Assembly: GCF_002159915.1 (NCBI RefSeq)
Contig: NZ_NFJP01000002.1
Coordinates: forward strand, 1-64,000
Origin: Gordonibacter sp. An230
GTDB taxonomy: Bacteria > Actinomycetota > Coriobacteriia > Coriobacteriales > Eggerthellaceae
DNA length: 64,000 nucleotides
Direction of reading: 5' to 3'
In this document: positions 15,048-43,439 of the stretch, piece by piece
How the letters are laid out: each line of letters opens with the position of its first letter
How positions within the stretch are numbered: the stretch's first letter is position 1
Notes under the pieces: model-generated
The model's input: the letters and a program-made list of their open reading frames with translations, nothing else
What the model was told of the DNA's origin: nothing
The model's database searches: none
Translations under genes and position numbers: made by a program

Positions 15048-16494
15048 TCAGCGGTCAAGGTGCTCGGTGGCGACGGAGAGCTCCTGACGGGTGGGCACCC
15101 CCGTTTTGGCGTAAATGCTGCGGATATGGGCTTTGGCGATGTTGTCCGAGATCACAAGCGCTTCGCTGATCGACTTCGCATCGTGTCCGCGCAGCATGAG
15201 GTCGAACGCCTCGCATTCCCGGGAGGTGAGGTTATGGTCGGCGGCGAACTCCTCGGAGGAAAGGCATCGCTGACCGCTCCCTCCGGGCACGCGGGAAGAG
15301 CGCGGCTCTTCGCCCGCATCGGCAGGCATCCCCCCCCTTCGGACGAAGGGTTGGAAAGGCCGCCTCGCCCAACACGACAGCTCGGCAAGGCCAGTATCTC
15401 CCCGGAAAGCCAGCTCACGTTCGTGATCGTGCGCACATCGCTCTCGCGAAAGATGAGCATGGACACGGCCACGAGAAGAAACGCCAGAACCAAGCCGATC
15501 ACGAACGACCGCGAGCCCTCCAATCCGAACGAGGGATAGCGCTGCCCACCACGAGCCCCATCAGAGAACCCAAGGCGAAGACGGAGCGGCCCCACCCGAA
15601 CACCTGAACCGAGCTCCAGTAGTCGCTGCGCGCCAAATGCGTCAGCAGGCACCACGCGAACAGCGAGAACAGGCTTTACACGAGCATGAACGGATAGTAC
15701 GCCACGCCGAAATCGAACGACTTGGGCAGGTTGCTCACCAACACCAAAGGCGAAGCTAGCGAGGATGACGAGGGATGCCCCCATCGCGCCGCCCGCAAAC
15801 GAGGCCTCGGCATCCTGCAAGGCGAACGCCCCCTTCGACAAGTTGGCCATGAAGGTGAGCAGGAACGCCACCGCAAGAAAACGGACGAACGCCGACGCGG
15901 CCGCCTTGCGAATCGAAGGATCGAGGTCGATCCTTTGGCGGCACGGGCGCTTGCGAAGGCTCTCGGCGTCGTCGAAGTCGAACGGCGTCATAAGCGAGGT
16001 GGCCAACGGCAGCAACGCTGCCACCGACAGCACTATGGTGGGAACGGTTCCCACAACGAAGAAGAAACGAGCCCGGATACCACTTCGGAAAGCGCCGTGT
16101 TCGTCACGGTGACCGCCGGACGAGAGGACACGTATATTTGGCTGGCGCGGACGGTGATGAAGGCGGTGCCGATGCCGGTGAGAAGCGCTCCCGCCACGAA
16201 CAGCACGTCCCCTCCTCCGGAAAACGCGAACGCGCCAACGTACTCCATCAGCATGCCCGGGGACGAGACGGCATCTGCAGCGCACATGACCCTTTTGCGC
16301 GAGAGAAGATCGGAGGTCCTTTCATGGAAAAGCGCCAGGAGCACGGCGACCGCCGCAAAAGCGACGGTCGACCATGCATACATGGTGAAGGAGCGGTACG
16401 CGGCTTGTCCCTGGGCGAGGTGCCCCCAAATCGGCGTCGTGTACACCACGAAGATCCACGAACGCCAGTAACTCGCCGCCGGCCACGCTCTCAT
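15048..16494 (-). pseudogene. Membrane LuxR-family regulator, multiply frameshifted
   Basis: Pieces of one gene can be followed across frames. The start MRAWPAASYW (ATG at 16494, good AGGGGGAG-like ribosome site) leads into predicted membrane helices, which continue after a shift near 16040-16090. A further shift near 15735, an in-frame TAA near 15676 and another shift near 15540 follow. The last piece has a LuxR HTH (LTSRECEAFDLMLRG, then SDNIAKAHIRSIYAKTGV). The HTH frame is joined through a run of eight G at 15330-15337. Divergent to the Tat flavoprotein gene at 16927, which an intact copy probably regulated. Confidence 0.75.
15330..15337 (-). repeat. Poly-G tract (eight) between membrane and HTH parts of the luxR relic
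   Basis: Eight C on the plus strand (G on the coding strand). Upstream the membrane-domain frame reads NPSSE; nine G instead of eight would continue it directly into the HTH frame (MPADAGEEP). Other lesions elsewhere in the gene mean a length change here alone would not restore it. Confidence 0.6.
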
Positions 16495-39593: not shown

Positions 39594-41403
39594 TCACCGC
39601 AAGTTCGACCCGAATAGCACAAGGTCGATGAGCTCCTGCTTCGCGTGGATGTTGAGCTTCTCGTAGACGTGCCTGATGTGCGTCCTTGTGGTGTTGTAAG
39701 AGATATGCAGCTCATCGGCGATGTACTTCGCGCTTCGCCCCATTGCGATAAGGCCGAGGATCTCCACCTCGCGTCGGGTCAGCCCGTTCTCGAATGCAAG
39801 CTTCTGGCAGCATGCAAGGATCTCCGCAGGCACGCCGTCCCCCTGCGAAGCGCCCGAACGCTCTGCGTCGTCCGATTCCGCCACGGCCCTGCATCCGTCG
39901 CCCCTCGTGCCTCCGTATCCGTCGCTCCGCGCTTCTCCTCGTCCAGAACCTCCCGCGCGTGCCGCCTTGCCTACCGCCGCGCCCGCAGCCTCCGCCGCCG
40001 CGCGTGCCGTCGCGCCGTTCGCAGCATCCGAAGCATCCGTCGCCCCCAGCGTCCCCAGCGCCGCGCCGTTCGCCGTCGGCCCCAGCGTCCGCACCGCGCC
40101 CGACGCACGCGTCGCCTCCGCATCCGCGCGCAAAGCCTCTGGGAGCGCCCCCTCCGCATCCCCCACATCCCCCGCGTTCGCCACATCCCCCGCACCCGGC
40201 TCCCGCACGGCCCCGCCCTTCTTCGACCGCGCCTTCTCAGCCCGTCCCCCGCCAAGAACATGACGGCACACGCTCGCAAAGTACAGCAACGTCAAGCCGA
40301 CACCAAGGCACGGCGAAAGCAGGCACCCCCCCCCCGAACGTCGATACGCGCACGACCAGCTGCCCCACGCACATCGCCTCGAACATCACACCCACCGCCA
40401 GCCCCTTCACCGCATAGGGCGACGTGCGGATGTCGTACGCGAAGATGGCAACGATGAGCACCCACACGCTCGTCTCCCACAATGCATCGGGCGAGCGGTC
40501 TGGTATGCCCGCACCTCCCATGACAAGCCCGATGCAGAACAGAGGCGCAACGCACACGCACAACGTGAGCACCGCCGTCCCCCACGCGCTCAAAGCCGAC
40601 CCCTCCCGCGCGAAGCGGCCCATCAACCCGCTGCAGAACACCATGGCCAAAACCGCCAGCGCTTCGAACAGCGCCATGTAGTTCAACCCCGAAGAAAGCA
40701 CGCCGTCCTCGCGCCCCGACAAATACGCCATCACGCTGCACCCCACCGCGAACACCGCCGCCACCACGACGAGCACCCGAAGCGCCTGGGCCCGCTCGCC
40801 CACGATGACGGCGCTGCCGTCCTCCCCCCGTCCGGCCTGGACGATGCACGCGAAGGCCGCAAGCGGAAGCGCCAGGAGAAATCCCTGGGCCACAGCGTCC
40901 GAAAACGTGCTGACCAATCGGAACAGAAAATAAACGGCAACCGCCACCGCAAGCGACGGGTCGACGAAGAACGAATCGGGGTCGGGGCGCGACGCTCGAA
41001 TCGTCGATGTCCAGATGACGGTCATCCAGCCGCACGCAAGCCCCAACAGCGCACCCGAAGCCCAGAACAACCCCACCCCTACCACGGGCAACATAGACAC
41101 AAGCGCAAGCACAGCCCCAACCGCCGCCGCCATGCTGACAGCCGGCACGCCGAACGACGACTCGATGAACAGCCGAGCGCGCAGAAGCGGCTTCGCCACG
41201 AGGTGCGCAAGCGTGACCGCGCAAACGACGATCAAGAAGAACGTCGAAAGCTCCGCGAGCGAGCGATCGACGCCGACGTAGTACATGGTGCGGATGACCA
41301 TATGCGAGGTGAAGAAGTACAGCACCCCTATGCCAACATCGAACACGGTCGGCCTCCCAACGAGCGCAAAGCCGCGCCCCCGCTCGCACATCCCGTTTCG
41401 CAT
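39594..41403 (-). CDS. Membrane-bound LuxR regulator split by a poly-G tract (probable phase-OFF state)
   Basis: Reading from the ATG at 41403 (MRNGMCERG, GGGGAGGC site), about 11 membrane helices run to VVRVSTFGGG, where ten G (40335-40326) push translation into a wrong frame that stops at 40237 without an HTH. The other frame resumes right after the tract as CLLSPCLGVGLTLLYFASV, the missing last helix. A very Ala-rich linker of about 130 residues follows, then a complete HTH (LTRREVEILGLIAMG, NTTRTHIRHVYEKLNI). Nine G would give one intact protein of about 600 residues. No other lesion was found. It is divergent from the Tat flavoprotein at 41658, its likely target. Confidence 0.8.
40326..40335 (-). 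repeat. Homopolymer tract of ten G, candidate phase switch
   Basis: Ten C on the plus strand, that is G on the coding strand, in the last extramembrane loop of the luxR gene. It is the longest single-base run I found in the window. Nine would be in frame and ten is out. A sequencing length error is the main alternative. Confidence 0.7.
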
Positions 41404-41452
41404 GGCGCCTCCCCTGCCCTTTCGCGCGGCCCTCCCGCCACGCGTCCCCGTC

Positions 41453-41482
41453 AGTATAGTGGAGGCAACACCACCTGGCGAA
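41453..41482 (-). promoter_or_regulatory. Candidate promoter of the split luxR gene
   Basis: TATACT (41453-41458, minus strand) lies 50 bases before the luxR start, with a weak TTCGCC 18 bases upstream. The rest of the 254-base divergent region has direct GCGAAT elements (near 41479 and 41510) but no clear promoter for the flavoprotein. Confidence 0.4.
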
Positions 41483-41657
41483 TAACGCATTTCGAGTGAT
41501 TTTAAGAGCGAATTCCCAACCGGCGGCTTTGCTGAGCGAAAAGCCCCTCGAAGCGAGTGATGCGGCGGCGGCAATTGGCCGCTATGCTCGAAAGGCCCCG
41601 AGGAAGGGGACGCCCCACCCTTGCAGGGGCAGGCACAAAAGAACTCGAGGAGGGACC

Positions 41658-43439
41658 ATGAGCATCGAAACACCCATGAACCGCCGCAGCTTCCTCAAGG
41701 GAGCGACCGTCGTGGGAGCCGCCGCGGCGGCCACCGGAGCGCTTGGACTGGCGGGGTGCGCCCCGCAGGGCAAAGGCGACGCGGCCAAAGGAGCCGCCAC
41801 GACCGAGCAGGGAGAATTGATTCTCGACGCCGAAACGTTCCAGAACGCGAAGTGGAACTTCGAGATTCCGCCCGAGCCCGTCGACGAGAGCAAGATCACG
41901 AACACCGTCGAATGCGAGATCCTCGTCATCGGCGCGGGCGTGGGCGGGCTCGTCACCGCCGCGTCCGCCGTCGAGGAAGGCGCCGACGTCGTGCTCATCG
42001 CCTCGAGCGACGGCCCCGTGTCGCGCGGAGGCTCCAACGCGGCCTTCAACACGCGCCTCACCCACGAGCTGGACCTCGACTTCACCCGCGAGGAGATCGA
42101 ACCCATCTTCCAGTCCATCTTCGCCGCAAACAGCTTCCGCCTCGACCAGGAGAAGTGGTGGCTTGTGTTCGACGAGTCCGGCACCGCCATGAACTGGCTC
42201 ATGGACAAGGTGGCGCCCTACGGCATCTCCGCCGTCATCGAGAACAACCAGCGCGACGGCGGCACGAGCTGGTGGGACGGCGGTCCGCTCAAAACGCTCA
42301 ACGTGTCGCACTCCTTCGTGGCCGAGGGCGCCCAGGCGGCCGGCGCGTCGCAGCAGATCGTCGTCGAGGCCTTGGCCGAGGAGATCACAAAGGGCGGCGG
42401 CCGGATCTTCTACAGCACGACAGCCGTGCAGCTCGACCGGGAAGGCGACAACACCGGGCGCGTCACCGGCTGCGTCGCGAAGCACGACAGCGAGTACACC
42501 CGCTATAACGCTTCGAAAGGCGTGGTGCTGGCCACAGGCGACTTCTCGCAGGACAAGGACATGGTGGCGAAGTACTGCCCCATGGCGCTGCCGTTCGGCT
42601 ATGGCGGCGTCTACGACGGCAGCGGCCTCAAGCTGGCGCTGTGGATCGGCGCCGCCTGGCAGAAGTACACGCCGAACGCGCCCATGCTGGCCACGATGGG
42701 CGACGAGGTGCTGCCGTGCCGCTGGTGGGCCGAAGGTGCGCTCACGACGTTCCCCGGCCTGCTCGTGAACAAGAAGGGCGTGCGCTACTCCAACGAGAAC
42801 TGCACGTACGGCTACATGCCCTACCCGCAGCGCGTGCAACCCGACGGATGCGCGTTCCTCATCTGGGACGAGAACTGGGTGCGCGACTCCGCGCCCTGGC
42901 AGAGCGACCGCGTGGGCGGCGAGGCGCGCGACACGCAAGAGGTCTACGACGCCATCCAGGCGCTGTTCGACCCCAACACCGACTGGACCACCACCGAAGA
43001 GTACGCGGGATTCGACGCCACCATGGCCGAGAACGCCGTCAAGGCCGACACCCTCGAGGAGCTGGCCGACGGGCTGGGGCTTCCCCGCGAGGAGTTCCTC
43101 GCCCAGGTGGAGCGGTACAACGGCTACTGCGAGACGGGCCTCGACGACGAGTTCCACAAGGACAAGCGCTTCCTCTTGCCGGTGAAGCAGCCGCCGTTCT
43201 ACGGCATCAAGAACGAGCCCTACACGCTGTGCATCACCGGCGGCCTCAACACCGACATCCAGATGCACGTATGCGATGCCAACAACGACCCCATCCCCGG
43301 GCTGTACGGCGTTGGCACGGTCGTAGGCGACATGTACGGCGACGTGTACGACTACAAAGTGCCGGGCATCAACCTCGGCGGCGCCTGCACCACGTTCGGC
43401 TATCTGCTGGGCAAGAACCTGACCGCCGGCACCTGGTAG
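41658..43439 (+). CDS. Tat lipoprotein FAD-dependent oxidoreductase (fumarate reductase flavoprotein-like)
   Basis: The 593-residue protein has a Tat motif (NRRSFLKG) and a lipobox (GLAGC, Cys near residue 34). The FAD fold is CEILVIGAGVGGLVTAASAVEEG, followed by SRGGSNAAFN. The C-terminus has GLYGVGTVVGDMYGDVYDYKVPG, a variant of the family's usual AAG...G ending. It is anchored outside and lacks hemes. The substrate is unknown. The ATG at 41658 follows GAGGAGGGA. Its divergent neighbour is the poly-G luxR, so expression may differ between cells of one population. Confidence 0.9.
   Translation: MSIETPMNRRSFLKGATVVGAAAAATGALGLAGCAPQGKGDAAKGAATTEQGELILDAETFQNAKWNFEIPPEPVDESKITNTVECEILVIGAGVGGLVTAASAVEEGADVVLIASSDGPVSRGGSNAAFNTRLTHELDLDFTREEIEPIFQSIFAANSFRLDQEKWWLVFDESGTAMNWLMDKVAPYGISAVIENNQRDGGTSWWDGGPLKTLNVSHSFVAEGAQAAGASQQIVVEALAEEITKGGGRIFYSTTAVQLDREGDNTGRVTGCVAKHDSEYTRYNASKGVVLATGDFSQDKDMVAKYCPMALPFGYGGVYDGSGLKLALWIGAAWQKYTPNAPMLATMGDEVLPCRWWAEGALTTFPGLLVNKKGVRYSNENCTYGYMPYPQRVQPDGCAFLIWDENWVRDSAPWQSDRVGGEARDTQEVYDAIQALFDPNTDWTTTEEYAGFDATMAENAVKADTLEELADGLGLPREEFLAQVERYNGYCETGLDDEFHKDKRFLLPVKQPPFYGIKNEPYTLCITGGLNTDIQMHVCDANNDPIPGLYGVGTVVGDMYGDVYDYKVPGINLGGACTTFGYLLGKNLTAGTW

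Follow-up and report, generated by a model that had tools for sequence, protein, structure and literature searches.

A run of ten G residues divides the gene of a membrane-bound LuxR-type regulator in the 64-kb stretch of DNA analysed here (the window), and the reading frame of this gene is probably switched by gain or loss of G residues through slipped-strand mispairing. An ON/OFF switch of this kind, as put forward in the initial annotation, is well supported by comparison: the tract is G10 in the window genome (G000) and G11 in a related species, the helix-turn-helix (HTH) domain beyond it is under selection, and sister LuxR genes carry tracts of their own. The similar runs in a related species and in several sister genes make random on/off switching of individual nutrient-sensing regulators probable.

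The regulator gene and its tract

The regulator gene occupies positions 39594-41403 on the minus strand and is split by a G10 tract at 40326-40335 (C10 on the plus strand), which is the only G/C run of at least 9 in the 64-kb window. Reading of the frames on both sides confirms the split. The 5' part (40336-41403, minus strand) begins with an ATG at 41403, encodes residues 1-356 with 11 hydrophobic windows and is open up to the tract. The initial annotation had described this upstream frame as clean and ending in FGGG, which holds as far as the tract, but the G10 product then continues for about 30 out-of-frame residues (40237-40325, minus strand) to a stop at 40237. The 3' part (39594-40325, minus strand) lies in another frame, also as described, and encodes the last hydrophobic window, an Ala/Gly-rich linker and a GerE (LuxR-type) HTH domain (39621-39782, minus strand; PF00196, E 1.8e-16), with the HTH frame stopping at 39594. 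The tract falls between hydrophobic windows 11 and 12.

Nine G residues had been predicted to join the two frames, and a G9 tract read in silico does give a protein of 602 aa with the HTH. A G12 tract gives 603 aa, also with the HTH, whereas G10 and G11 give products of 388 and 370 aa without it. As in a contingency locus, unit changes in tract length toggle the frame between a functional (G9, G12) and a truncated (G10, G11) form.

The joined reading contains 12 hydropathy windows, 11 before and one after the tract, as counted by simple hydropathy and not by a topology program. By its domain content the regulator is a member of the 10-12-TM LuxR family, having a C-terminal pfam00196 HTH, 10-12 N-terminal TM helices and a nearby flavin enzyme, the FAD_binding_2 flavoprotein encoded divergently at 41658. 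Proximity to flavin or molybdenum enzymes is frequent in this family, though not universal, and 50 of the 83 TM LuxRs of Eggerthella lenta DSM 2243 lie near flavin enzymes (Dong et al. 2022, PMC9734109). The Coriobacteriia regulators DadR, HcdR and CadR share with the window regulator the 12 hydrophobic windows with a GerE HTH, the flavoprotein neighbour and the bacterial family; they differ in having catechol dehydroxylase genes as targets, and the available text on them describes no tract or phase switching (PMC9734109).

The flavoprotein neighbour and the intergenic region

The divergent gene (41658-43439, plus strand) encodes a FAD_binding_2 flavoprotein with a Tat signal and is predicted to be the likely target of the regulator; in the 10-12-TM LuxR family, activation of an adjacent gene upon sensing a substrate is typical. 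A divergent flavoprotein adjoins the regulator, or a fragment of it, in 14/14 loci (L053-L066), with 80-98% identity in 12 loci and 59-60% in L063 and L064; none was seen beside the weak regulator matches L067 and L068. At L065 (G010) and L066 (G006) a fragment of the LuxR ortholog adjoins a shortened flavoprotein match, reflecting either deletion or misassembly.

An alignment of 10 regions corresponding to the divergent intergenic region (41404-41657) revealed several conserved elements. AGTATA (41453-41458, minus strand), a possible -10 of the regulator gene, occurs in 9/10. GAGTGA is found twice on the plus strand, as box 1 (41494-41499) in 8/10 regions and as box 2 (41555-41560) in all 10. 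The second box is followed in the alignment by a TAnnnT element, and lies upstream of the possible -10 of the flavoprotein gene (TATGCT, 41583-41588, plus strand). GAGTGA has a background frequency of 0.12 per kb on both strands (464-kb sample), and here two copies lie 61 bases apart. The GAGTGA boxes may bind the regulator. The conserved synteny and the conserved boxes back the earlier naming of the flavoprotein gene as the target, and its control by the regulator is a prediction.

Related genomes and selection on the out-of-frame part

On sequence comparison, Rubneribacter badeniensis is the closest relative of G000 at the regulator locus. Both genomes are drafts, that of G000 comprising 3.88 Mb in 73 contigs. 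R. badeniensis ResAG-85 shares 91% aa identity over the upstream part of the regulator and 86% nt identity over the gene, and its ortholog carries G11 at the equivalent site, which puts it in the other of the two wrong frames (L009, L021, L053 and L263 are copies of one R. badeniensis contig region and were counted once). The initial annotation had looked to different tract lengths between strains as support; a length difference between related genomes, as marks a contingency locus, is seen here at the species level, G10 versus G11, with both genes out of frame.

Further afield, the upstream part of the regulator has matches in 17/138 genomes of the family (E <= 0.001). Seven full-length orthologs from other genera (L054-L060) are intact and open through the HTH, and these have no G runs of 7 or more on either strand. 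In genome G056 the ortholog is divided between two contigs. One of them ends in G14 then C and the other starts with G9 then C; the break falls in another of the loops between helices, close to residue 267. A poly-G tract in another loop of this ortholog is suggestive only, because draft contigs can end in artefactual G runs.

Between G000 and R. badeniensis, dN/dS is 0.19 upstream of the tract and 0.52 for the 3' part as a whole, with 0.41 in its first 30 codons and 0.85 in the linker. The last 75 codons, which make up the HTH, give 0.146 in their own frame. Reading them in either wrong frame raises the value to 2.7 or 1.3, and the downstream region then contains 2-4 stops. The HTH part is under purifying selection although it is out of frame in both genomes. 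Its low dN/dS in its own frame indicates that it was selected there for much of the time since the species split; since dN/dS is an average over time, it would not reveal inactivation that took place very recently in each lineage.

Tracts in sister regulator genes

LuxR-type regulators are abundant in both genomes, with 124 GerE matches in G000 and 90 in R. badeniensis. We examined 127 HTH stretches in G000, 123 of them with at least 1200 bases upstream, and 63 HTHs of the 90 GerE matches in R. badeniensis, where many loci had been chosen for their tract. In-gene tracts of at least 9 were found in at least 6 TM-LuxR genes of G000 and at least 10 of R. badeniensis, the latter figure being a count and not a rate. 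In G000 the tract is out of frame in L134 (G9), L165 (the 40326-40335 tract, G10), L170 (C11) and L313 (G10), and in frame in L145 (G10) and L288 (G9). In R. badeniensis it is out of frame in L263, L372, L375, L130, L219, L221 and L222, and in frame in L228, L256 and L259. These runs of 9-11 lie in TM loops or linkers, and 11/16 are out of frame when orthologs are counted separately, a share near the two thirds that drifting phases would produce. The tally leaves out tracts located at the 5' end of a regulator gene, close to it, or over 1250 bases upstream of the HTH, at loci that include L129, L141, L154, L155, L156, L232, L234, L236, L298, L344, L347, L103, L233 and L319, together with a degenerate HTH fragment (L147) and a second TM-LuxR gene in the window. 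This last gene (15050-16321, minus strand) carries several frameshifts besides C8 (a G8 run) at 15330-15337, and looks decayed.

In three regulator pairs neither species has the gene in frame: the window regulator and its R. badeniensis ortholog, L170/L375 and L313/L372. Downstream of the tract, dN/dS is 0.034 for L170/L375 (20 synonymous and 3 nonsynonymous changes) and 0.019 for L313/L372 (27 synonymous and 2 nonsynonymous changes). One pair, L288/L259, is in frame in both. Homologs of L313/L372 in other genera are without a tract at this site, and one of them (L402) has G10 elsewhere in the matched stretch within a 610-aa open frame. Outside the LuxR family, a PucR-type regulator (L185/L244) carries G10, out of frame, in G000 and G12, in frame, in R. 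badeniensis, with a downstream dN/dS of 0.19.

Slippage of RNA polymerase (or of the ribosome) on the G tract would yield some full-length protein at any tract length, the tract then setting a low, steady dose of the regulator. Recoding of this type would account for selection on the HTH with both genomes out of frame, any length of about 9-11 being sufficient, but it does not require the 5/16 tracts that are in frame, and for the G tract of Bifidobacterium breve replication slippage is reported, tract lengths varying within the population (PMC9187656). We regard it as an unlikely explanation of the tract.

Long G/C runs and mismatch repair

Long runs are a general feature of these genomes, with 158 G runs of at least 9 in G000 and 139 in R. 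badeniensis. In 400 kb sampled from G000, G/C runs of exactly 6, 7, 8, 9, 10 and 11 number 54, 3, 1, 4, 4 and 3, against 100, 22, 5.0, 1.1, 0.25 and 0.06 expected under an order-3 Markov model. The length distribution in this sample is thus bimodal: runs of 7-8 are scarce, and a second peak lies at 9-11. The longer tracts exceed chance, as do the repeats of contingency loci. Among tracts that could be matched between the two genomes, 5/7 differ in length. MutS_I has no match in 3/3 Rubneribacter genomes, compared with matches in 11/14 control genomes, and NucS_C gives one weak partial match in each of the three Rubneribacter genomes.

Most of the runs lie outside genes. Of the placed G000 tracts, 92/98 fall outside called genes, which makes an in-gene run unusual, but a simple gene caller misses frameshifted genes and put the LuxR tract of L134/L073 outside genes. 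A high-threshold codon-score classification also missed frameshifted genes, and a lower-threshold same-strand test with random controls was used instead. With a threshold of 0, coding signal was present on both sides of 4/102 G000 tracts and 14/96 R. badeniensis tracts, as compared with 57% of random positions. Rates so far below those of random positions indicate that long runs are mostly intergenic and are usually avoided by genes. Genome-wide poly-G was considered as the finding in itself and rejected, most runs being intergenic.

Several individual runs deserve mention. An 811-base match between L184 (G000:C19) and L253 (G002:C54) is 99.9% identical, far closer than the approximately 86% of the regulator locus, with G10 in one and G11 in the other, and is perhaps a recently shared element. 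In L087 and L105 the start codon of a LysR-like gene is immediately preceded by G12, a tract of equal length in both species that might affect translation. L076 (the tract at L135:8230) has G10, out of frame, soon after a signal-peptide-like start; its protein has weak EF-hand and LRR matches and is possibly a phase-variable surface protein. Some contigs also end in very long runs (73 G in L095, 31 C starting L344 and 20 G in L182), which are either sequencing artefacts or assembly breaks at poly-G.

In-gene tracts are concentrated in LuxR genes, to an extent that depends on the criterion used. An unbiased sample of 464 kb (20 stretches and the window) holds 12 runs of at least 9, and 3/4 of those in genes are in LuxR genes (P 0.005), the fourth being the L076 tract, a possible in-gene case. 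By the both-side coding test, LuxR genes account for 2/5 in-gene tracts in G000 and, leaving out the ortholog L263, 9/15 in R. badeniensis (P 1e-8 to 4e-7 at an assumed LuxR share of 5-8%); adding genes from further tests brings the G000 figure to 4/9 (P 0.001-0.004). The LuxR share of coding sequence is an estimate that takes 1.5 kb for each gene, and the orthologs among these counts do not represent independent cases.

These results bear on whether the regulators have simply been lost recently, the tracts arising from mutation pressure without MutS and each regulator being knocked out on its own, with no useful return. That mutation pressure by itself produces such runs follows from their abundance and their mostly intergenic position; the genome has more than 120 LuxR-type HTHs that may turn over, and the gene at 15050-16321 looks decayed. 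Recent loss fits poorly, however, with three LuxR pairs out of frame in both species at downstream dN/dS values of 0.15, 0.03 and 0.02, and with the concentration of in-gene tracts in LuxR genes (9/15 in R. badeniensis), and we consider it rather improbable. An error of sequencing or assembly, the true tract being G9 or G12 and the gene intact, is less likely than the switch and altogether very unlikely: both genomes are drafts with implausible contig-end runs (the 73 G and 31 C above), but separate assemblies give different out-of-frame lengths (G10 and G11) both here and at L313/L372, and L288 and L259, each with a run of 9, are in frame.

Proposed switch and its relation to known systems

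In the proposed switch, slipped-strand mispairing at the tract, left uncorrected for want of MutS, would toggle the link between sensor and HTH. Cells with G9 or G12 would have the membrane sensor joined to the HTH and could activate the divergent flavoprotein gene (ON), while in cells with G10 or G11 the sensor would be without an HTH and the flavoprotein would not be induced (OFF). Both sequenced species would then have been caught OFF, in different phases. The position of the tract in a loop or linker should allow an extra Gly or Pro to be tolerated. Switching within a population and its rate, like control of the flavoprotein and any benefit to the cell, are parts of this scheme that we infer. 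A DadR variant of E. lenta that lacks the DNA-binding domain failed to restore induction, with poor expression of the mutant not excluded (PMC9734109), which we count in favour of the switch. Counted against the switch are the abundance of long runs, mostly intergenic, the seven tract-free orthologs, and the dN/dS of the 3' part (0.52) and linker (0.85).

The familiar cases of phase variation by slippage concern pathogen surface structures and a small number of master regulators. In Bordetella pertussis, a C6/C7 change in the coding region of bvgS likewise truncates a membrane regulator through a homopolymer and leaves it non-functional (PMC1891110), but BvgS is a sensor kinase, its C run is shorter, and it is a single master regulator rather than one of several specific one-component regulators. 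The pilus switch of B. breve also uses an intragenic G tract and replication slippage in a gut actinobacterium, its target being surface pili and not regulators (PMC9187656). The poly-C tract of mga in Group A Streptococcus, by the title of a paper cited in PMC11868660, shares slipped-strand mispairing in a transcriptional regulator gene, in another regulator family and another phylum. Capsule-locus inversions are described in an E. lenta preprint (PMC13174815), and PMC10269533 names Rubneribacter in its references alone. Among the matches listed in literature searches on Eggerthella, Coriobacteriia, Actinobacteria and LuxR, there was no earlier report of slippage phase variation in regulators of Eggerthellaceae. 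A homopolymer frame switch is of a known kind; what would be novel is a set of such switches in a gut actinobacterium's membrane LuxR regulators.

With sister TM-LuxR genes carrying their own tracts, cells of one population could differ in their inducible enzymes. The sequences give somewhat better than even grounds for supposing that Rubneribacter has an array of membrane LuxR regulators that vary in phase independently of one another, with a random subset of sensors in each cell and hence a combinatorial bet on enzymes. If the switch is real, slippage affects several specific one-component sensors in a family of gut commensals known for its drug and diet-compound metabolism, and it could explain colony-to-colony differences in inducible metabolism. 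If the array is real as well, each cell would be placing a random bet on inducible respiratory or diet-compound enzymes.
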